64,000 bases of DNA from Flavobacterium sp. (GTDB lineage: Bacteria; Bacteroidota; Bacteroidia; Flavobacteriales; Flavobacteriaceae), in assembly GCA_014378065.1 (NCBI GenBank), contig JACMOK010000071.1:49099-113098 (forward strand), written 5' to 3'. The notes beneath the pieces were generated by a model. The model saw only the letters and a program-made list of their open reading frames with translations, did not search any database and was not told the origin of the DNA. The translations under genes were made by a program, and so were the position numbers. Positions 1,354 through 51,056 of this stretch are shown one piece after another (position 1 is the stretch's first letter; every line of letters begins with the position of its first letter).

Positions 1354-1385
1354 AAAAAAAGGCTCTGCATTGCAGAGCCTTTTTT
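1354..1385. terminator. Bidirectional terminator between convergent genes
   Basis: aaaaaaaggctctgca-ttgcagagccttttt perfect palindrome with A/T flanks. Confidence 0.85.
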
Positions 1386-2262
1386 ATTCTTCCCTAAGTT
1401 GGTTTTTGTAACTTTCAATATTATTTCTGACCGCCTCATCAAGCAACGGTTCTTGAATATCGGTATATTTTTGCATGACTTCCCAAATAATTTTACCTAC
1501 AATATAACGGGCCATCTCTTTATCATCAGCCGGAATCACATACCAGGGCGCATATTTCTTTGAAGTAGCGTTAATTGCTTCTTCATAATATTTCATGTAA
1601 TCTTCCCAATGATCGCGCTCTTTTAAATCGCCTACCGAAAATTTCCAATTGTGCTTCGCCTCTTCTAAACGCCGCAACAACCGCTGCCTTTGCTCCTCTT
1701 TGCTCAGATGCAAAAAGAACTTCAATACGATAGTTCCGTTTTGGGAAAGGTGTTTTTCAAAATGATTGATTTGCGCCATTCGGTTTTCCCAGAATTGAGC
1801 AGTAATGTCTTCTACTTTTTCAATTCCTGGCAGGTTTTCATTTAAAATATATTCCGGATGCACCCGAGTCACCAACACATTCTCATAATGCGTGCGGTTA
1901 AAAACCGTAAACTTACCTTTTTCGGGCAAGGCGAGATAATGCCGCCACAGAAAATCGTGTTCTAACTCTGAAGAATTAGGCGTTTTAAAACTAAGCACCT
2001 CCACGCCTCTTGGGTTAAATTCCTTAAACACTTCCCGAATCAAACTGTCCTTTCCTGAAGTATCCATCCCCTGCAAACAAATCAGCACACTGTAGCGATT
2101 GTGCGCATACATGACATCCTGTAACGCGCTGAGTTTGTCGCGAACGGCGTCGAGTTTGTCTTCCTTTTCGGCATCATCGGCTCCGTTTTGTAGCAAGGTA
2201 GCAACTTTGGATAGGGTAATTTTTTTTACCACTTTAAATTCATCGGGATCAATTGACTTCAT
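1384..2262 (-). CDS. PPK2 family polyphosphate kinase/phosphotransferase
   Basis: Walker A QGMDTSGKDSLIR, NRTHYENVLVTRVHP, lid motif RLLRRLEEAKHNWKFSVGDLKERDHWEDY. Confidence 0.92.
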   Translation of the reverse strand: MKSIDPDEFKVVKKITLSKVATLLQNGADDAEKEDKLDAVRDKLSALQDVMYAHNRYSVLICLQGMDTSGKDSLIREVFKEFNPRGVEVLSFKTPNSSELEHDFLWRHYLALPEKGKFTVFNRTHYENVLVTRVHPEYILNENLPGIEKVEDITAQFWENRMAQINHFEKHLSQNGTIVLKFFLHLSKEEQRQRLLRRLEEAKHNWKFSVGDLKERDHWEDYMKYYEEAINATSKKYAPWYVIPADDKEMARYIVGKIIWEVMQKYTDIQEPLLDEAVRNNIESYKNQLREE

Positions 2263-2434
2263 GTAAATTCATTTATATTTATAGTTTCAAATTTAAGAAA
2301 TATTTGAAGCCAATTCCAGCTATCCATTACAATTTTTTTTGCTCCTCGCCAATTTATATTTTTAAAACTTAGACAACGCAAAAAAAGATTTTCTTTGCTA
2401 TCTGGGCTAGGGAAACCAGTAAAATTCAACACTT

Positions 2435-3268
2435 ATGCATGCTTTTCAACTTGAATTGTTATTTCAAATTATAGGGATCGGCTCCGCTTCAGGATTACTA
2501 TACCATGAACCTTCCTTGTACTTGATTTCAGACAACGGAGCCTATCTTTACCAGTTCCAAACCCAAACGAAAGCGCTGGAAAAAACACTGCTTTTCGATA
2601 ATCCGGTTGTGGAGAACATTCCCAAAAAAATAAAACCCGATTTCGAATCCATCACCCATTTTGAAGATGACTATTTTATTTTTGGCTCCGGTTCAACGCC
2701 AAACCGAAATAAGATGTTTCAATACCATTCAAAAAACAAAACCATAAAAACCATAGACCTGACCAATCTCTATCTGTTGATGCAAAGTTTTGGCAATATC
2801 AAGCCAGAGGATTTTAATATTGAAGGCGTTGTTTTTACGGGCGAAATTTGGTATTTTTTGCAACGTGGCAACGCAGGAACAGGCAAAAATGGCATTTTCA
2901 CAGTGCAAGGTAGCAACCTCGAAAATGATTTCACGATTTTATACAATTCCTACAGACTTCCAAAGATAAAAGGCATTCAAAGTAGTTTTACCGATGCAGT
3001 TTTGATAAATGACACACTCTATTTTTTGAGCACCGCCGAAAATACCAAATCGACTTTTGACGATGGTGTTGTGCTCGGAAGTTTTGTAGGGCTTCTCAAT
3101 ACAAAGACGATGAAAATCGACTTTACCCAACAAATTAGCAGCCAACATAAGTTTGAAGGTATTTCGCTGTACCAAAGTACCGCCTCGACCATAGAATTTT
3201 TACTTTGTGACGACGACGATTCGGACAGATTACAAACAAATATATATAAGTTGGTGTTAAACAAATAA
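2435..3268 (+). CDS. DUF6929-like beta-propeller family protein
   Basis: 277-aa ORF; repeated SGLLYHEPSLYLISDNGAYLYQF / FEGISLY strands; family name recalled, not searched. Confidence 0.6.
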   Translation: MHAFQLELLFQIIGIGSASGLLYHEPSLYLISDNGAYLYQFQTQTKALEKTLLFDNPVVENIPKKIKPDFESITHFEDDYFIFGSGSTPNRNKMFQYHSKNKTIKTIDLTNLYLLMQSFGNIKPEDFNIEGVVFTGEIWYFLQRGNAGTGKNGIFTVQGSNLENDFTILYNSYRLPKIKGIQSSFTDAVLINDTLYFLSTAENTKSTFDDGVVLGSFVGLLNTKTMKIDFTQQISSQHKFEGISLYQSTASTIEFLLCDDDDSDRLQTNIYKLVLNK

Positions 3269-5905: not shown

Positions 5906-7069
5906 TCATTTTGTAGCAAACATTTTTACATCGTTTTCTGAAATTTCGTTGCCACCTAAAATGATCAGCCGTTCTACCACATTTCGCAGTTCGCGAATGT
6001 TTCCGGTCCAATCGTAGGCTTGGAGCAAAGTAATTGCGGCTACCGAAAATAATTTTGGTGTCGTGCCCTGTTCAGAGGCGATTTTTTCGGTAAAATAGGC
6101 AATCAACACTGGAATATCTTCGCGCCTGTCATTTAAAGCCGGCACTTTAATAAGAATTACGGCCAAGCGGTGGTATAAATCTTCTCGAAAACGGCCTTCT
6201 GCAATTTCGACTTTTAAATTTTTATTAGTCGCTGCTATCACGCGTACGTTGATTTTAATGTCTTTTTCGGCGCCCACTCTGGTAATCATATTTTCTTGTA
6301 AGGCGCGCAATACTTTGGCCTGTGCCGACAAACTCATGTCGCCAATTTCATCTAAAAAAATGGTTCCGCCATCCGCGGCTTCAAATTTTCCAGCCCGATC
6401 GCGCACTGCCGAAGTAAAGGCCCCTTTGACATGACCAAACAATTCACTCTCAATCAGCTCACTCGGAATGGCGGCGCAGTTGACTTCAATCAGCGGAAAG
6501 CCCGCGCGTTCACTTTTTTCATGCAATTGATGGGCAACTAACTCTTTTCCGGTGCCATTGGGTCCGGTGATTAAAACCCTGGCCTCGGTTGGTGCTACCT
6601 TTTCGACCATTATTTTGATCTGGTTGATGGCTTCGCTTTCGCCAATCATTTCATAGTTTTTGCTGACTTTTTTCTTGAGGATTTTGTTTTCTACCACAAG
6701 TTGCTTTTTGTCTAACGCGTTGCGAACAGTATTGAGCAGCCGATTTAAATCGGGTGGTTTGGAGATGTAATCAAACGCACCGAGTCGCATGGTGTTGATG
6801 GCTGTTTCCATATCACCATGACCAGAAATCATGACCATGGGGATTTCGGGTTTGATTTTTTTGACCGCCTCGAGCAGTTCTACGCCGTCCATTTTTGGCA
6901 TTTTGATGTCGCACAATACAAGATCGTAATCGTATTTTTTAATTTTTTCGAGTCCTTGCATGCCATCTTCGGCATCTTCGACGATGTAAGTTTCGCTTTC
7001 TTCGGAAAGTATTTTTGTGAGTACCCGGCGGATGGCCGCTTCGTCTTCGATAATGAGTATTCTTGACAT
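5906..7069 (-). CDS. Sigma-54-dependent two-component response regulator (NtrC family)
   Basis: REC domain (LVLCDIKMPKMDG), AAA+ GPNGTGKE, GAFTSA, FREDLYHRL, C-terminal NIRELRNVVERLIIL. Confidence 0.95.
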   Translation of the reverse strand: MSRILIIEDEAAIRRVLTKILSEESETYIVEDAEDGMQGLEKIKKYDYDLVLCDIKMPKMDGVELLEAVKKIKPEIPMVMISGHGDMETAINTMRLGAFDYISKPPDLNRLLNTVRNALDKKQLVVENKILKKKVSKNYEMIGESEAINQIKIMVEKVAPTEARVLITGPNGTGKELVAHQLHEKSERAGFPLIEVNCAAIPSELIESELFGHVKGAFTSAVRDRAGKFEAADGGTIFLDEIGDMSLSAQAKVLRALQENMITRVGAEKDIKINVRVIAATNKNLKVEIAEGRFREDLYHRLAVILIKVPALNDRREDIPVLIAYFTEKIASEQGTTPKLFSVAAITLLQAYDWTGNIRELRNVVERLIILGGNEISENDVKMFATK

Positions 7070-7083
7070 ATAGTGTATTTTTT

Positions 7084-7163
7084 TAGCCCCGATTGGAGAG
7101 GAAATCCTTTTGTTTTTTCTTTAAAAAATAAAAGATTGCAACGTAAAGCGGGAAATGGCTTCT
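7084..7163 (+). repeat. Dispersed intergenic hairpin repeat, copy 1
   Basis: tagccccgattggagaggaaatccttttgttttttctttaaaaaataaaagattgcaacgtaaagcgggaaatggcttct; aligned by eye to 26885-26965 and the reverse complement of 36751-36831. Confidence 0.88.
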
Positions 7164-7184: not shown

Positions 7185-8489
7185 TTAATATTTCAACCAT
7201 TTGTACAATTCGCGCCAGGTTGGTTTTTTGCCGTACATCAATATGCCGACGCGGTAAATTTTGGAGGCAAACCAGACCACAAAAAAGAAAGAACTGAACA
7301 ATATTGTGATTGACAGTAAGATTTGCCACCAAGGCACACCAAACGGAATTCGCATCAGCATGACGATCGGGGAAGTCAACGGAATCATCGAGAATACTGT
7401 GGCGATTGTGCCATGCGGATCGTTCATCACAGTAAAAAAACCGATGTAAACTCCAAGAATTAACGGCATTATTATCGGCAACAGAAATTGCTGAGAGTCG
7501 GTTTCGTTGTCTACTGCGGCACCAATGGCAGCATAAAACGAGCTGTAAAGAAAATAGCCTCCGACGAAATAGATGATAAAGCAAGCGAAGATGGAAGCGA
7601 TGGGCAGGTTCCACAATTCTTTAAGGTAGAGCTGCGCGGTTGAGGCCATTTCTTGCGAAGCAGACTCCATGGCATGTTGCGAGATGGCTGACGTAGGTCC
7701 GACCTGCACTCCAAAAAATGCCGAAGCGGCGGATAGTAATGAAAGTCCGATAATTGCCCAGATAAAAAACTGCAGTATACCGGCTAACGAAGTTCCGATG
7801 ATTTTTCCCATCATTAGTTGAAATGGTTTTACGGAGGAAATGATGATTTCGATAATGCGGTTGGTTTTTTCTTCGATGACGCTGCGCATCACCATATTTC
7901 CGTAGATGATGATGAACATCATGATCAGATAACCGAAAGCTCCTCCAATGGCAATCTTGATTTCGTTTAATCCTTTTAAGGTAGATTCGCCGGAAGCTTT
8001 GGCCACGCTAATATTGACTTTGGCTTCCGCATTTTTTATGGCAAGCGTGTCCAGGTGTGCGTTTTCTAAATTGATTTTAGTGATTTTCTTGGCTATAAGG
8101 TCTTCGATATCTCCAAGAAAACTAAGGCTAGGACTGTCATTGGATATGTATTTAATTTTGTTCTGCAACGTTTTATTATCAATAGCTTTAGGAATAAAAA
8201 GCAGGCCTTCATAACTATCTTTTGTAATACTGTCTCTAAGTATTTTCATTGGTACGGCAGACAAATTTAAGTAGCGGTATTGGTCAGAATTTTTGAATTC
8301 GTCAGCGAATATTCCGGTTTCATCGTGCACTGCGATGGTTTTTACATCGGCTTTCATTGAGCTTAAATAGCCTACAAAAACAGCAATTCCGACAAACAAC
8401 AACGGACTCAGAAAAGTCATGACGATAAAGGATTTATTGCGGACTTTGGCAATAAATTCTCGTTTAATGATAAGGGTTAGGATGCTCAT
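7185..8489 (-). CDS. ABC transporter permease (NatB/ABC-2 type)
   Basis: N-terminal TM, long extracytoplasmic segment, several C-terminal TM helices; adjacent to ATPase gene. Confidence 0.9.
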   Translation of the reverse strand: MSILTLIIKREFIAKVRNKSFIVMTFLSPLLFVGIAVFVGYLSSMKADVKTIAVHDETGIFADEFKNSDQYRYLNLSAVPMKILRDSITKDSYEGLLFIPKAIDNKTLQNKIKYISNDSPSLSFLGDIEDLIAKKITKINLENAHLDTLAIKNAEAKVNISVAKASGESTLKGLNEIKIAIGGAFGYLIMMFIIIYGNMVMRSVIEEKTNRIIEIIISSVKPFQLMMGKIIGTSLAGILQFFIWAIIGLSLLSAASAFFGVQVGPTSAISQHAMESASQEMASTAQLYLKELWNLPIASIFACFIIYFVGGYFLYSSFYAAIGAAVDNETDSQQFLLPIIMPLILGVYIGFFTVMNDPHGTIATVFSMIPLTSPIVMLMRIPFGVPWWQILLSITILFSSFFFVVWFASKIYRVGILMYGKKPTWRELYKWLKY

Positions 8490-9653: not shown

Positions 9654-10763
9654 TTAGGAGAACATATCTTTAACTTTTTCGAAAAAAGATTTATCGCTTT
9701 TTTCTGGCTGCGGAATAAAGTTTTCGTCGGTAAGGTTTTTCTCGAAAAATTGTTTCTGGTCTTTATTTAAAATTTTTGGTGTCCAAACATTTACATGAAC
9801 CAGCAGGTCTCCATTCCCATATCCGTTAAGGCTTGGAATTCCTTTTCCTTTTAATCTCAAAATTTTCCCAGACTGAATTCCTTCCTCGAGTTTAATTCTA
9901 ACTTTTCCGTTTACCGCTTCAATATCTTTTGAAATTCCCAATACCGCTTCAGCAACACTGATGTAGAGATCAAAGTGTAAATTTTCACCTTCTCTTTTCA
10001 AGAATTCATGTTCAACTTCTTCGATAGCGACGATCAAATCGCCTGGAATCCCATTGCCGGGTGCATCATTTCCCTTATTGGCAACTTTAAGTTGCATGCC
10101 GTCGACTACGCCCGCAGGAATTTTTATAGAAACCGTTTCGTCTTCCAAAAGCATGCCCTGTAAGTCAGCGTTGGTTGGTTTTTTGTCGATAATTTGACCC
10201 GAACCACCACAAGTCGGACAAGTAGAAGCCGACTGCATTCTTCCTAAAATGGTATTGGTAACTCGCATCACTTGCCCCTGACCATTACATGTACCACAGG
10301 TTTTATACGAAACGCCGGGGGCCTGAATTTTACGTTTTACTTTTACTTTTTTTTCTACACCATTGGCCACTTCCTCTAACGTCAATTTGACTTTAATGCG
10401 CAGGTTACTCCCTTTCATGCGACGTTGCCCGCTAGAACTTCCGCCAAATCCTCCTCCAAAAGCGCTACCAAAAATGTCTCCAAACTGGCTGAAGATGTCA
10501 TCCATGTTCATTCCGCCACCACTATAACCTCCGCCTCCGCCATCGAAAGCTTGATGACCATACTGGTCGTATTTGGCTTTCTTTTGCGGATCGCTCAAAA
10601 TCTCATAAGCCTCGGCTGCAATTTTAAAATTTTCTTCTGCTTCTTTGTTGCCAGGGTTTTTATCAGGGTGAAATTCAATAGCTTTTTTCCTGTAGGCCTT
10701 TTTGATTTCAGCTTCGGAAGCGCCTTTGGAAATGCCTAACAATTCGTAAAAATCTTTTTTCAT
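9654..10763 (-). CDS. dnaJ: Molecular chaperone DnaJ
   Basis: J domain with HPD, G/F region, C-terminal substrate-binding domain; only two CxxCxGxG repeats. Confidence 0.95.
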   Translation of the reverse strand: MKKDFYELLGISKGASEAEIKKAYRKKAIEFHPDKNPGNKEAEENFKIAAEAYEILSDPQKKAKYDQYGHQAFDGGGGGYSGGGMNMDDIFSQFGDIFGSAFGGGFGGSSSGQRRMKGSNLRIKVKLTLEEVANGVEKKVKVKRKIQAPGVSYKTCGTCNGQGQVMRVTNTILGRMQSASTCPTCGGSGQIIDKKPTNADLQGMLLEDETVSIKIPAGVVDGMQLKVANKGNDAPGNGIPGDLIVAIEEVEHEFLKREGENLHFDLYISVAEAVLGISKDIEAVNGKVRIKLEEGIQSGKILRLKGKGIPSLNGYGNGDLLVHVNVWTPKILNKDQKQFFEKNLTDENFIPQPEKSDKSFFEKVKDMFS

Positions 10764-10806
10764 GGTTGTTTTATCGTTATAAACAAGTGTTGACTTGATT
10801 TAAAAA

Positions 10807-25451: not shown

Positions 25452-26873
25452 ATGTCGTTAAAAATAAAAAATACAATAGCGCTAGTTTCATGTTTTCTGA
25501 TGGTGTTGGGTTTTCAATGGTGTTCATTGGATCGACCTTTCTTTTGGGATACCATACAGTTGGGTGCTGCTCACGCTACATATTACTGGTCTACGCAATT
25601 CTCTACGATACTCTTACCCGAGAGTATAGATAGCGGCCACATACCGAGTTTTGGCATGTTTCTGGCGCTGGTTTGGGAAATATTTGGCAGAACACTAATC
25701 GCTAGTCATTTGTGTATATTGCCTTTCAGCATCGGAATCGTATGGCAACTTTGGCAGTTGTGTCGTCAATTTATTGTTGCTGAATTTGCAGGAGTTGCGC
25801 TCTGCCTAATTATGATAGATCCGTCGCTGCTAAGTCAAATAACTTTAGTTTCCCCCGATGTTCCTTTGGTTTTTTTCTTTCTTTTAAGTGTAAATGCCGT
25901 ATTAAAAAACAGAACATTACTTCTGCTGTGCGGGATACTCCTTCTTTTCATGACCAGCATGCGCGGCATGATGCTCTCGATTTGTATTCTATTTTTAGAT
26001 CTGTACCGCCATATCGATTTAAAAAAAACACCAAAACAATTGCTATCCATCCTTTTGAAAAGAAGTATTATTTACATCCCTGCCTTGCTGGTGTTCGTTA
26101 TTTTTAGTGGCTATCACTATGCCGAAAAGGGCTGGATTGGCTACCATAGAAACTCGCCTTGGGCCAAATGTTTTGAAGCTGTTAATTTTAAAGGGTTCTT
26201 GTACAATATCGGAATATATGGCTGGCGCCTAATTGATTTTGGAAGGGTCGGCGTTTGGAGCGCCTTTTTTATATTGTTGCTATTATATCGAAAAGTCATC
26301 TTCAAGGAAAAAGAGATCCGTATTCTAGGCTATTTTTCGGCAGTGCTGTTGCTCATTTTACCCTTGAATATGTTGTGGGCAAAAAACCTGCTGGCACCGC
26401 GCTACTTTATCCCCATTTATTTAACTTTTTCGTTATTTTGCGCGGCAATTTTGTTTTCGAAATTTGTAGCTAAAAATGTGCGACTAGCGTTGGCCGCCCT
26501 ATGGTTCATTTGCATCGTGTCTGGCAACTTTTGGGTTTATCCCCGACAAATTTCAGAAGGTTGGGATGCCACTTTAGCACATGTTCCGTATTACAAGCTC
26601 CGTGAGCAGGCGCTGGCGTATTTGGATAATGAACAGTTGCCATATAGCGAAGTACAGTCTTTTTTTCCAAATACGGCAGCCATAGACCTTATTGATTTGA
26701 ATGGCGACGCAAGAAAATTTCAAAATTTTGATGGAAAAGGGCGCTACGTTTTGGACTCGAATATCTTTAATGTAAATGAAACAGATTATAATAGCTTAAT
26801 CCGGCATTACAAGGTCGTCAAACGATTTGAACACCTCGGAGTGCATGTTGTTATTTACGAAAAGTTACAATAA
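25452..26873 (+). CDS. Glycosyltransferase family 39-like multi-TM membrane protein
   Basis: ~10 TM helices, FFWDTIQLGA..., APRYFIPIYLTFS. Confidence 0.65.
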   Translation: MSLKIKNTIALVSCFLMVLGFQWCSLDRPFFWDTIQLGAAHATYYWSTQFSTILLPESIDSGHIPSFGMFLALVWEIFGRTLIASHLCILPFSIGIVWQLWQLCRQFIVAEFAGVALCLIMIDPSLLSQITLVSPDVPLVFFFLLSVNAVLKNRTLLLLCGILLLFMTSMRGMMLSICILFLDLYRHIDLKKTPKQLLSILLKRSIIYIPALLVFVIFSGYHYAEKGWIGYHRNSPWAKCFEAVNFKGFLYNIGIYGWRLIDFGRVGVWSAFFILLLLYRKVIFKEKEIRILGYFSAVLLLILPLNMLWAKNLLAPRYFIPIYLTFSLFCAAILFSKFVAKNVRLALAALWFICIVSGNFWVYPRQISEGWDATLAHVPYYKLREQALAYLDNEQLPYSEVQSFFPNTAAIDLIDLNGDARKFQNFDGKGRYVLDSNIFNVNETDYNSLIRHYKVVKRFEHLGVHVVIYEKLQ

Positions 26874-26884
26874 CCCTTCTCGCC

Positions 26885-26965
26885 TAGCCCTGATTGCAGT
26901 GGAAATCCTTTTTTAAGATTTTTACCTTAAAAAAGATTGTAGCGTAAAGCAGGAAATAGCTGCTT
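26885..26965 (+). repeat. Dispersed intergenic hairpin repeat, copy 2
   Basis: tagccctgattgcagtggaaatccttttttaagatttttaccttaaaaaagattgtagcgtaaagcaggaaatagctgctt. Confidence 0.88.
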
Positions 26966-27033: not shown

Positions 27034-27903
27034 ATGGAAAGTATTTTAGAAAACACATTACCCGTTGGCAAGCCCAAATGGTTAAAAGTTAAGTTGCCTA
27101 TCGGAAAAAAATATACTGAACTTCGCGGTTTGGTGGACAAATACAGTTTAAATACGATTTGTACCTCGGGAAGTTGCCCGAATATGGGCGAATGCTGGGG
27201 AGAAGGAACAGCAACTTTTATGATTTTGGGCAATATTTGTACGCGTTCGTGCGGCTTTTGTGGCGTTAAAACGGGCCGGCCGGAAACCGTCGATTGGGAT
27301 GAACCCGAGAAAGTAGCGCGTTCAATTAAGATCATGAACATCAAACATGCTGTTGTGACGAGTGTCGATCGCGATGATTTGAAGGATGGCGGTTCAATTA
27401 TTTGGATTGAAACGGTCAAGGCAATTCGGCGAATGAATCCGACCACAACTTTGGAAACCCTGATTCCCGATTTTCAGGGTATTGAAAGGAATATAGACCG
27501 CATTGTGGCCGCCAATCCAGAAGTAGTGTCGCACAATGTAGAAACCGTGCGCAGGTTAACTCGTGAAGTGCGCATTCAAGCCAAATATGACCGGAGTTTA
27601 GAAGTATTGCGGTATCTTAAGGCGAAAGGTATCAATCGAACCAAGTCGGGCATTATGCTGGGTTTGGGTGAGACAGAGGCAGAAGTCATTCAGACGTTAC
27701 ACGATTTGCGCCAAGCCAATGTAGATATCGTAACCATCGGACAGTATTTGCAGCCCAGTAAAAAGCACTTACCGGTCAAAGAATATATTACACCAGACCA
27801 GTTTGCCAAATATGAAAAGATCGGTTTGGAACTTGGTTTTCGTCATGTGGAAAGCGGTGCTTTGGTTCGTTCTTCTTATAAAGCAGCAAAACACATTTTA
27901 TAA
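27034..27903 (+). CDS. lipA: Lipoyl synthase
   Basis: [41 protein letters not shown]. Confidence 0.98.
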
Positions 27904-35902: not shown

Positions 35903-36742
35903 ATGGAAAAAATAAAATACTGGCTGCTGACCAAATCCATCGGATTTTACATCAACCTATTGCGTTATTGGAATCCGAAAAAAGCAGCCTTACTGGCTTA
36001 CAAATTGTTTAGCAATCCCAGGATCGGTAAATTCTCTGAAGAAACTTTGCCTTTGGTTTTACAGGATGCATTAAAAGAAACAGTTCACTTCAACGAACAT
36101 ACTTTCCAAACCTATACTTGGAGCGGCAACGAAACGGTAACCTTATTGGTTCACGGTTGGGAAAGCAATGCCTCGCGCTGGGAGAAACTGTTGCCCCACC
36201 TCAAAAAAACCGGCCATACTATTGTCGCGCTCGATGCTCCGGCCCATGGTTTGTCTAGCGGCAAAGAATTCAACGTGCCACAATATGCCGCCTTTATTGA
36301 CGTCCTCACCCAAAGATACCAACCCAAACACATCATCGGTCATTCTATCGGCGGCATTGCCAGTGTATATTACCAGCACCATTACCCCAACCAGTTAAAA
36401 AAAATGATTTTGCTGGGCGCCCCTTCCGATTTCACCATCTTGATTTCCAATTATGTAAAATTGCTGGGACTCCATTCTAAAATTCACCAATTTTTAAAAG
36501 ACTACACCAAAGAAAAATTCGCCATAGCCATTGAAGACTTTTCAGCCGAAAAATTTCTGAAGTCGTCTTCACTACTCGGCATAGTGGCACACGATCACGA
36601 CGACACCGTGGTGGCCTTTTCAGAAGGTAAAAAACTGGCTTCCAGCTGGAAAAACGCAACCTTCATACAAACCCAGGGACTAGGACACAGCCTTCATGAC
36701 GATGCGTTGTACCAAAAAATAATATCCTTTTTAATGCAATAA
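35903..36742 (+). CDS. Alpha/beta hydrolase
   Basis: LLVHGWESNASRWEKLLPHL, APAHGLSSG, IIGHSIGGIAS nucleophile elbow, GLGHSLHDDA. Confidence 0.92.
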   Translation: MEKIKYWLLTKSIGFYINLLRYWNPKKAALLAYKLFSNPRIGKFSEETLPLVLQDALKETVHFNEHTFQTYTWSGNETVTLLVHGWESNASRWEKLLPHLKKTGHTIVALDAPAHGLSSGKEFNVPQYAAFIDVLTQRYQPKHIIGHSIGGIASVYYQHHYPNQLKKMILLGAPSDFTILISNYVKLLGLHSKIHQFLKDYTKEKFAIAIEDFSAEKFLKSSSLLGIVAHDHDDTVVAFSEGKKLASSWKNATFIQTQGLGHSLHDDALYQKIISFLMQ

Positions 36743-36750
36743 TTTTTCGC

Positions 36751-36831
36751 AGAAGCCATTTCCGGCTTTTAGTTCCAATCTTTTTATTTTTAGAGAAAAA
36801 ATAAAAAGGATTTCTACTACAATCCGGGCTA
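36751..36831 (-). repeat. Dispersed intergenic hairpin repeat, copy 3
   Basis: Reverse complement tagcccggattgtagtagaaatcctttttattttttctctaaaaataaaaagattggaactaaaagccggaaatggcttct. Confidence 0.88.
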
Positions 36832-36888
36832 AAAAAATTTCGCGAACGCCGAATTAATCCTTACTAAATTTAATAGTACTTTTGTGCC

Positions 36889-37830
36889 ATGGAAGAACAG
36901 GTCAAAAGGCTCAATAAATTTATCGGCGAAACTGGTTTCTGCTCCCGTCGGGAAGCAGACAAACTTATTGAAGACGGCCGGGTCACAATCAACGGCATTG
37001 TTCCTGAAATGGGAACCAAAGTGTCTCCCTCCGATGAAGTGCGCATCGATGGCAAACTGATCCGCGACAATCAAGAAAAGCTAATCTATTTGGCGTTTAA
37101 TAAACCCGTCGGAATTGAATGCACCACCAACCTTGAAGTTCGCGACAATATTATAGATTATATCAACCATCCCAAACGTATTTTCCCCATCGGCCGGCTG
37201 GATAAAGCGAGTGAAGGTTTAATCTTCATGACCAATGACGGCGATATCGTCAATAAAATTCTTCGGGCCAGAAACAACCACGAAAAAGAATACACCGTCA
37301 CGGTGAGCAAACCCATTACCGAAGATTTTATACAACGCATGGGAGACGGCGTGCCGATTTTGGATACCGTTACCCGAAAATGCAAAGTGGAACAAATCAG
37401 TCAATTTATTTTTAAAATTATTTTAACGCAGGGACTTAACAGACAAATTCGAAGAATGTGCGAGTATCTAGGTTATGAAGTCACTGCTTTAAAACGCATT
37501 CGAATTATCAACATCTCTTTGGATTTACCAGTTGGCAGATACCGCGATTTGACCGATGCCGAGATCCAAAAATTAAACCAGCTCATTGAACCCTCAAGTA
37601 AAACCGAGGAAGCGAGTTTGCCAAAAACAGCTCATAAAAGAAAGACGATGCCCGAAAAAAAAGCAATCGTTCCGTTCAAAAAAAAGATAGAATCTACAAA
37701 GACAATCCCCTCAGAAAGACCGATAGCTCCAGATGAAAATAAAAACGATAGTCCGAACGCTGCGTCTAAATGGAAAGTCGATTTCATTAAAAAAGATGAT
37801 CCCAATTATAAAAAAAAAGGAGAATACTGA
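36889..37830 (+). CDS. rluF: 23S rRNA pseudouridine synthase, RluF-like, with basic C-terminal extension
   Basis: S4 domain RLNKFIGETGFCSRREADKLIEDGRV, GRLDKASEGLIFMTNDGD, GLNRQIRRMCEYLGYEV. Confidence 0.93.
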   Translation: MEEQVKRLNKFIGETGFCSRREADKLIEDGRVTINGIVPEMGTKVSPSDEVRIDGKLIRDNQEKLIYLAFNKPVGIECTTNLEVRDNIIDYINHPKRIFPIGRLDKASEGLIFMTNDGDIVNKILRARNNHEKEYTVTVSKPITEDFIQRMGDGVPILDTVTRKCKVEQISQFIFKIILTQGLNRQIRRMCEYLGYEVTALKRIRIINISLDLPVGRYRDLTDAEIQKLNQLIEPSSKTEEASLPKTAHKRKTMPEKKAIVPFKKKIESTKTIPSERPIAPDENKNDSPNAASKWKVDFIKKDDPNYKKKGEY

Positions 37831-49736: not shown

Positions 49737-49770
49737 AAATCAGCTTTTCAGAAGAAAAAGCTGATTTTAA
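49737..49770. terminator. Rho-independent terminator
   Basis: aaaatcagctttt-cagaag-aaaaagctgatttt. Confidence 0.75.
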
Positions 49771-49784
49771 TTTAAACGTTTAAT

Positions 49785-51056
49785 TTATTGTTTAACGAAC
49801 TTCAACGACTGTCTGATCATATTGGTGTGAATATCTAAAAAATAAACGCCTGCACCGTAAGGAAAATCAAAACTATAGGTTTTAGTTCCTCCATTTTTAA
49901 TATTGTCCTTTTGAAGTTCCTTGAGTCGGTGGCCCGCAGCATCATACAAATCTATGACCAGATGATCGCTTTCTTTAAATTCAATGGCCACGTTCAATTT
50001 GTCTTTTACAGGATTGGGCAGAATTAAAGCCTTTAACGGTGTGATGGATTTTTCAACAAAATTTTTAGTGTTCAAAGTAGTATCGCTAAATTTATAAACT
50101 GTCGCGCCAGCACCGTAAGCTAAATTGTTGTTGACAATAAATATTCTGTTTAAATACAACCCTACCCCAATATCATTCCAGGTATCTCCACCGTCAAAAG
50201 TTTCTAGTATATTAGTGTGATAGCCTCCCATAAATCCATGATTTTCGGTTAAAAAACCAACACCTTGTATCAGATAATCAGGAACTTCTTTGCTTACCCA
50301 ATTGAGCCCGTTGTCTGTCGATTTTATTAATTTTCCTTGGAATGGCTCGACTGATTCTACCGAGCCAAATATGACATTTGGATTAGACTGTAGAATTTGA
50401 AGTTTCCAAACATATTCGCCAGCAATGGTCGAATTATAGACGGCACTCCATGTACTTCCGCCGTCTAAAGTTTTTAGCACCACCGCGCCAGTACTTGTAC
50501 TTCCTGAAGCGTATCCGATGTTTTCATCCACGAATAAAATTTCCACTAGCGCGGTGGCGTAAGCACTCATATCGATGTATTCCCAAGTTGTGCCGCTGTC
50601 GGAAGATTTAATAATGTAAGCTGGCGAAAAATAAGCACCGCAGCCGTAAACTGTGGAAGTACCAACGGCATCCAAGCCACAAATAGCCTGAGGATTAGTT
50701 GGAAAATTGCTCACCACCGTCCAGTTGTCGCCGCCGTCAATTGTTTTCAAAAAAACGCCGTTTAAAGTACCAACAAAACCAATATTCTCGTTTAAGAATT
50801 CAACGTTCCTGAAATAATAGTTGCCTCCCAGAGATTGTTCTGTAACTTGAGTGGTCCAAGTGGCACCACCGTCAGTGGTTTTGTAAATCCCGGCATGCGC
50901 GCCATTGGCAGCCCAACCCAAATTTTCATTTAGAAAAAACACATCGTCAAATCTTGAGGTATCTACATCTTCCACTATAGAAGTTAATGGACGCCATTGC
51001 AATTGTGCCGAAAGAGAAATTGAAAAGAATAAAACCAGAACATAAACTTTTTTCAT
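49785..51056 (-). CDS. YCF48/BNR-repeat secreted protein with T9SS type A sorting domain
   Basis: Repeated GIYKTTDGGATW/FLKTIDGGDNW/VLKTLDGGSTW; C-terminal LILPNPVKDKLNV...LYDAAGHRLKEL..GAGVYFLDIHTNMIRQSLKFVKQ. Confidence 0.92.
   Translation of the reverse strand: MKKVYVLVLFFSISLSAQLQWRPLTSIVEDVDTSRFDDVFFLNENLGWAANGAHAGIYKTTDGGATWTTQVTEQSLGGNYYFRNVEFLNENIGFVGTLNGVFLKTIDGGDNWTVVSNFPTNPQAICGLDAVGTSTVYGCGAYFSPAYIIKSSDSGTTWEYIDMSAYATALVEILFVDENIGYASGSTSTGAVVLKTLDGGSTWSAVYNSTIAGEYVWKLQILQSNPNVIFGSVESVEPFQGKLIKSTDNGLNWVSKEVPDYLIQGVGFLTENHGFMGGYHTNILETFDGGDTWNDIGVGLYLNRIFIVNNNLAYGAGATVYKFSDTTLNTKNFVEKSITPLKALILPNPVKDKLNVAIEFKESDHLVIDLYDAAGHRLKELQKDNIKNGGTKTYSFDFPYGAGVYFLDIHTNMIRQSLKFVKQ

Follow-up and report, generated by a model that had tools for sequence, protein, structure and literature searches.

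Flavo-1 (RF01705) in Flavobacterium and beyond: a constrained intergenic hairpin that may be a structured DNA element

What kind of element is an intergenic hairpin of about 80 bp that recurs within a single 64,000-nucleotide stretch of Flavobacterium sp. DNA (hereafter, the window), with conserved arms and a stem that differs from copy to copy while remaining self-complementary? An earlier note on this DNA had described three such copies, all past stop codons, mentioned similar repeats in Flavobacterium intergenic regions, and named a match to a characterised Rfam family as one outcome that would refute it. Such a match was found by cmscan of the window: all four copies present there belong to RF01705 (Flavo-1, Rfam 15; cut-off 42 bits), with which they share both sequence and consensus structure. 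The mention of Flavobacterium repeats was right, these being Flavo-1. By the note's own criterion the family is not new; the window copies are new members of it, and what is now better supported is a view of its nature. The reading that we favour, with a probability of about 0.5, is that Flavo-1 is an old, dispersed, non-autonomous structured DNA element under purifying selection.

Flavo-1 copies in the window and in its genome

The three described copies are all real and lie where they had been placed, with E-values of 1e-15 to 2e-14 against RF01705, and a fourth with a longer and weaker stem, at 2309-2412(-), had been overlooked (Table 1). The distances of 21, 11 and 8 nt from the adjacent stop codons had been given correctly. 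Copy 4 departs from this arrangement, being flanked by divergent genes. For copy 1, the stop codon in question belongs to its right-hand gene, and on the other side the gene at 5906-7069(-) starts 11-15 nt downstream of the copy. Copy 2 lies between a gene at 25452-26873(+) and a radical-SAM gene at 27034-27903(+), the latter lipA-like by sequence. The former encodes 473 aa without a Pfam match, and the one relative found in the genome collection is 40% identical and comes from a Crocinitomicaceae MAG. Elsewhere in the window, a weak sub-threshold RsaJ match at 49737-49820(-) (23.8 bits) is a plain AT-rich hairpin and probably a terminator.

Table 1 Flavo-1 copies in the window, parts of copy 2, and selected plasmid and microvirus copies
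Feature	Position	Strand	Evidence and remarks
Copy 1	7081..7159	+	RF01705, 76.0 bits; antisense to flanking 5906-7069(-) and 7185-8489(-)
Copy 2, best in window	26882..26960	+	RF01705, 78.7 bits, E 1e-15; sense orientation
Copy 2, left arm TAGCCCTGATTGCAGTGGAAATCC	26885..26908	+	sequence; N6, N10, R14 and Y15 covary with right arm
Copy 2, variable self-complementary stem-loop	26909..26934	+	sequence
Copy 2, right arm GATTGTAGCGTAAAGCAGGAAATAGCTGC	26935..26963	+	sequence; an A-tract follows the right arm in most copies
Copy 3	36755..36834	-	RF01705, 74.1 bits; antisense to flanking 35903-36742(+) and 36889-37830(+)
Copy 4, long loop	2309..2412	-	RF01705, 63.4 bits; flanked by divergent PPK2 1384-2262(-) and DUF6929 2435-3268(+)
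Paraclostridium bifermentans plasmid matches	L240:3990-4066; L241:3990-4066 and 1126-1051		above cut-off; branch hairpin GGCGAAAGCC
Variant-B element, complete circular microvirus genome	L242:3589-3663	+	
Variant-B element, complete circular microvirus genome	L247:3382-3466	-	

Further copies, for which the earlier note had proposed a search, are abundant: the genome (2.95 Mb, 172 contigs) holds at least 134 Flavo-1 matches, at least 128 of them above the cut-off, these counts being lower bounds from 150 scored candidates out of 855. Across 36 genomes of the same genus, the copy number ranged from 0 to more than 65, the highest value that this search could give. The family originates from Weinberg et al. 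(2010), where it was judged a likely RNA ("y") with an unlikely cis-regulatory role ("n") and listed under Bacteroidetes (PMC2864571). It has been in Rfam since about 2010 with the type "Gene; sRNA" and an unstated function, and by the count of a recent review it is one of the most abundant families of small RNAs (PMC9029176); the papers found on Flavo-1 assign it no function.

Anatomy of the hairpin

Seventy-three copies were extracted from the genome, and 102 usable arm pairs were obtained from three genomes. The conserved arms and self-complementary variable stems are as the earlier note had described them, and the arms covary: left-arm positions N6, N10, R14 and Y15 are paired with the right arm in 96, 98, 94 and 88% of the 102 arm pairs, against only 58, 53, 80 and 71% with shuffled partners. 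The element is an imperfect hairpin on one strand, in which the short covarying helices are separated by an A.G mismatch (101 of 102 copies) and by two 3x3 internal loops of the form G.A / N N / A.G (5'-GNA-3'/3'-ANG-5'), and which is capped by a stem that is self-complementary, yet differs in nearly every copy of the genome. No covariation was seen among the middle bases of the 3x3 loops in the 102 arm pairs, and in the second loop, A18.G becomes C.A or T.A in about one third of copies. An A-tract lies to the right of the right arm, with A at 0.65-0.89 at seven positions compared to approximately 0.36 further out. The element begins with YYYTAGCCC and ends with GCTYCWAAAA, and the TAG stop codon of the neighbouring gene is often supplied by one of these ends. 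The published description of RF01705 thereby gains the A-tract.

It also gains a longer form, variant B, with the same core, an outer stem (such as GCGTT..AACGC, GCATT..AATGC or CGTCA..TGACG) and a small branch hairpin on the right side; all plasmid and viral copies and a minority of the Flavobacterium copies are of this form. The branch loops outside Flavobacterium, read by eye, are mostly GNA or GNNA (GAA, GCA, GATA, GCTA, GAAA), a small hand tally suggesting that these loops are of a kind more typical of DNA than of RNA. Sheared G.A pairing in stable GNA loops is established for the single-stranded DNA hairpins of Streptomyces telomere palindromes (PMC7205883), and the sheared G.A in a GNA context recurs in the Flavo-1 arms and in several branch loops; Flavo-1, however, is not located at chromosome ends, and the likeness is one of motif and not of system.

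Mismatches bear on the question of which strand folds. G.T exceeded A.C at the covarying pairs (21:7, p 0.013) and, with less contrast, over all stem mismatches (25:14, p 0.11; these stems hold a conserved bulged C), an excess that weakly favours folding of the Rfam strand. This strand is mostly the template strand of transcription and hence absent from mRNA. At the same time, RNA folding energies of the two strands differ only slightly, and RNA and DNA alike form stable GNA loops. The opposite strand is the one that would matter if Flavo-1 were a cis-acting RNA whose complement, transcribed past the stop codon, stabilises or defines the mRNA 3' end, for example as an exonuclease barrier after Rho-dependent termination. 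We consider this possible, though rather doubtful; the variant-B branch, which often reads C(UUCG)G in the mRNA strand, is in its favour, whereas both the G.T bias and the GNA loops speak for the strand opposite to the mRNA.

Placement and age of the chromosomal copies

Gene contexts were called in three genomes with a home-made gene caller and gave 89 tandem, 27 divergent and 12 convergent copies in spacers totalling 85, 34 and 23 kb, respectively, so that the copy density was lowest in convergent spacers, and divergent spacers were not depleted. Between co-directional genes, 79 of 106 copies are antisense to the genes. In the tandem spacers of the three genomes, the Rfam strand ran opposite to the genes in 65 copies and with them in 24 (p 1.6e-5); this count includes two sister species with shared sites, and the cleaner figures are 34:14 for the genome of the window and 14:3 for a fourth genome. 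A role at the mRNA 3' end gains from this bias, by which one particular strand is usually present in mRNA, and from the fact that 69 of the 89 tandem copies are closer to the upstream stop than to the downstream start. Against such a role, about one fifth of the copies are flanked by divergent genes, in spacers without an mRNA end, convergent ends are not enriched, and no U-tract follows the hairpin; a terminator-like hairpin with a T-run adjoined only 3 of 135 copies. A Rho-independent terminator was rejected, since an A-tract stands where the T-run should follow the hairpin, convergent spacers are poorest in copies and divergent ones are undepleted.

The Bacteroidetes promoter motif is TAnnTTTGY. 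No excess of this motif reading into the element was found (7 against 16 in shuffled sequence), outward-reading motifs were in excess on both sides (20 against 4 and 3), and no fixed distance between element and promoter was detected. The absence of a promoter of its own together with the lack of convergent enrichment fits neither a small-RNA gene, for which a promoter is expected, nor an intrinsic terminator, which would be expected mainly at convergent gene ends and rarely between divergent genes. A gene for a trans-acting small RNA is what the Rfam type implies, and the verdict of Weinberg et al. (PMC2864571) given above speaks for it. It is nevertheless very unlikely: the copies number at least 128, are mostly antisense and have different stems in almost every case, and transcription is inconsistent in F. 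psychrophilum, where Flavo-1 matches were indistinctly sense or antisense and many lay outside transcribed regions (PMC9723704). The data therefore speak against the small-RNA typing of RF01705. No replichore bias was seen in a single-contig genome, in which 26 of 58 copies are fork-oriented if the origin is placed at dnaA; the GC skew gave no clear origin.

The age of the copies was approached with two draft genomes of sister species that are 94% identical around lipA and offered 15 comparable sites. The same copy was present in both species at 12 of the 15. At two others, the copy occurred in one species only, the whole spacer having changed, and neither showed a clean empty site with a target duplication. 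At the remaining site (G014 C52:12641-12707 and G185 C62:5050-5125; L223, L154), place and orientation were kept and arms and stem were entirely different, which looks like the replacement of one copy by a different one; next to the element there is an ordinary intrinsic terminator. At the shared sites, substitutions per site amounted to 0.028 in the arms, 0.051 in the stem and 0.131 in the flanks (Fisher p about 1e-17 to 1e-18), the flank rate being inflated by a few sites with unrelated left flanks. Compensatory double changes separate orthologues, from T-A to G-C in the stem (C83/C74) and from T-A to C-G at Y15 (C156/C113). Within the genome of the window, the median identity to the nearest paralogue is 77%, and one pair only exceeds 90% (G000 C54:26057 and C133:278); its members share flanks, lie close to the ends of contigs and probably reflect a segmental repeat or a duplication in the assembly. 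Recent copies were seen neither among these paralogues nor at the sister-species sites. Shared sites, slow change of the arms and distant paralogues together mark the copies as old, for the most part settled at their sites, and under constraint.

Selection on structure, as the earlier note had proposed, is supported by the covariation, by the slower change compared to the flanks and by the compensatory changes between orthologous copies. Purifying selection would suit a role at the mRNA 3' end too. An inert repeat could acquire compensated stems without selection if quasi-palindromes were corrected by template switching during replication, which could alter both sides of a stem in one event, as at one orthologous site with CTGCGC..GCGCAG in one species and CTGCTC..GAGCAG in the other. 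We regard this as improbable; it leaves unexplained the approximately fivefold slower change of the arms than of the flanks, the kept non-Watson-Crick G.A pattern and the constant place of the phage copies described below.

Being short, palindromic, intergenic and multicopy, Flavo-1 could also be taken for a REP element, a repeat of the kind moved by a REP-associated tyrosine transposase (RAYT); the earlier note had suggested checking this link, which found no support. The Y1 transposase domain PF01797 is absent from the genome of the window (97% complete) and from three others with at least 64 Flavo-1 copies each (G004, G030 and G031), four genomes with PF01797 matches hold 0 or 1 copy, and close pairs of elements enclose unrelated housekeeping genes only, with no shared gene or transposase between them. 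Mobilisation by RAYT is the least probable of the explanations considered. Like the GTAG/CGTC REP palindromes (PMC3733652), Flavo-1 is a short structured intergenic repeat with a high and variable copy number, and, like the CGTC REPs, it is without a dedicated transposase; it differs from them in its greater length (75-130 bp), its two internal G.A loops and the absence of a GTAG tag at the hairpin foot or of any conserved GTAG/CGTC end tag. Flavobacterium is unmentioned in the paper on these palindromes (PMC3733652). One variant-B copy adjoins a CGTC-type REP palindrome (L174, about 10600-10800, G014 C31; CGTCATTGCGAGGCACGAAGCAATC on the other strand). A comparison with DDE-transposase MITEs gave terminal repeats limited to AGC/GCT, and the two absent sites showed no clean duplication.

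Plasmids, phages and the nature of the element

The listing of RF01705 under Bacteroidetes is here extended to Clostridia plasmids and to phages. Plasmids of Paraclostridium bifermentans, a member of another phylum, carry Flavo-1 at 51-64 bits, and nine viral contigs carry it above the cut-off. Among the latter are the two complete circular microvirus genomes of Table 1, each of which has terminal repeats and encodes rep (phrog_942); in one of them, the element is located about 12 nt behind rep in antisense orientation. No element was found behind or near rep in eight named relatives of L242 with Rep proteins 49-61% identical, which means that the microvirus copy was gained sporadically.

A different picture was obtained for viral contigs that carry the element behind a terminase-like gene, so called from named homologues annotated as terminase large subunit, in the absence of a PHROGs match. 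These contigs are related to one another at 30-70% protein identity, and a search with the terminase-like protein gave 15 loci from IMG/VR (L260-L274), four of them near-identical. Rfam detects the element in four of the 15; by reading of the sequence, the element or a degenerate form stands directly behind the stop codon in 14, L262 being doubtful. In nearly all relatives, it lies 1-16 nt past the stop in antisense orientation, an arrangement that a role at the mRNA 3' end would also accommodate. With an independent descriptor, it was located in antisense orientation 1-14 nt past the stop in 10 or 11 of the loci; the remainder of the 101 kb gave two matches, and shuffled sequence an expectation of 1.8. 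More distant terminase relatives (Flavobacterium phage 6H, Cellulophaga Ingeline, Polaribacter Leef and Microcystis Mea-Yong924) have no element behind the gene, and in phage 6H at least, an ordinary terminator takes this place. Several of the L260-L274 loci have a long noncoding region with further structured repeats after the element.

A structured DNA element is favoured over an mRNA 3'-end element on the grounds of the copies in divergent spacers, the missing promoters, the range of replicons and the weak G.T pointer to the Rfam strand. A protein acting in trans would then recognise Flavo-1 as a folded single strand or as a cruciform. Recognition by this partner probably rests on the arms, because they are kept in sequence and the stem in pairing only; the stem would serve merely as a scaffold. 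The element occupies intergenic gaps, either following a stop codon ahead of the next promoter or flanked by divergent promoters. Most copies have been in place since before the sister species split, and the element may have spread between replicons, as its occurrence on chromosomes, plasmids, dsDNA phages and ssDNA phages suggests. While the slower change compared to the flanks demonstrates constraint, it also argues for some selected local role. Taken alone, the reading as a DNA element leaves both the antisense bias and the close position behind stop codons unexplained. Integron attC sites are resembled by Flavo-1 in the variable stem and in the place behind a stop codon, these being the features compared.

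A more specific and decidedly tentative proposal is that Flavo-1 is the recognition site of an unrecognised system acting on folded DNA strands and common to Bacteroidetes chromosomes, Clostridia plasmids and phages. Flavo-1 would have become fixed as a functional signal directly behind the terminase-like gene in one phage family, with the more than 100 chromosomal copies bound by the same kind of protein.

The strong covariation and the loop pattern, the antisense bias, the shared old constrained sites, and the occurrence in plasmids, microviruses and other phages are new for this family. If Flavo-1 is indeed a DNA element, many genomes would carry wrong small-RNA annotations for it. The most useful new lead is the phage family that keeps the element at a fixed place behind a single gene; this family provides a small single-copy system for testing the function of Flavo-1.
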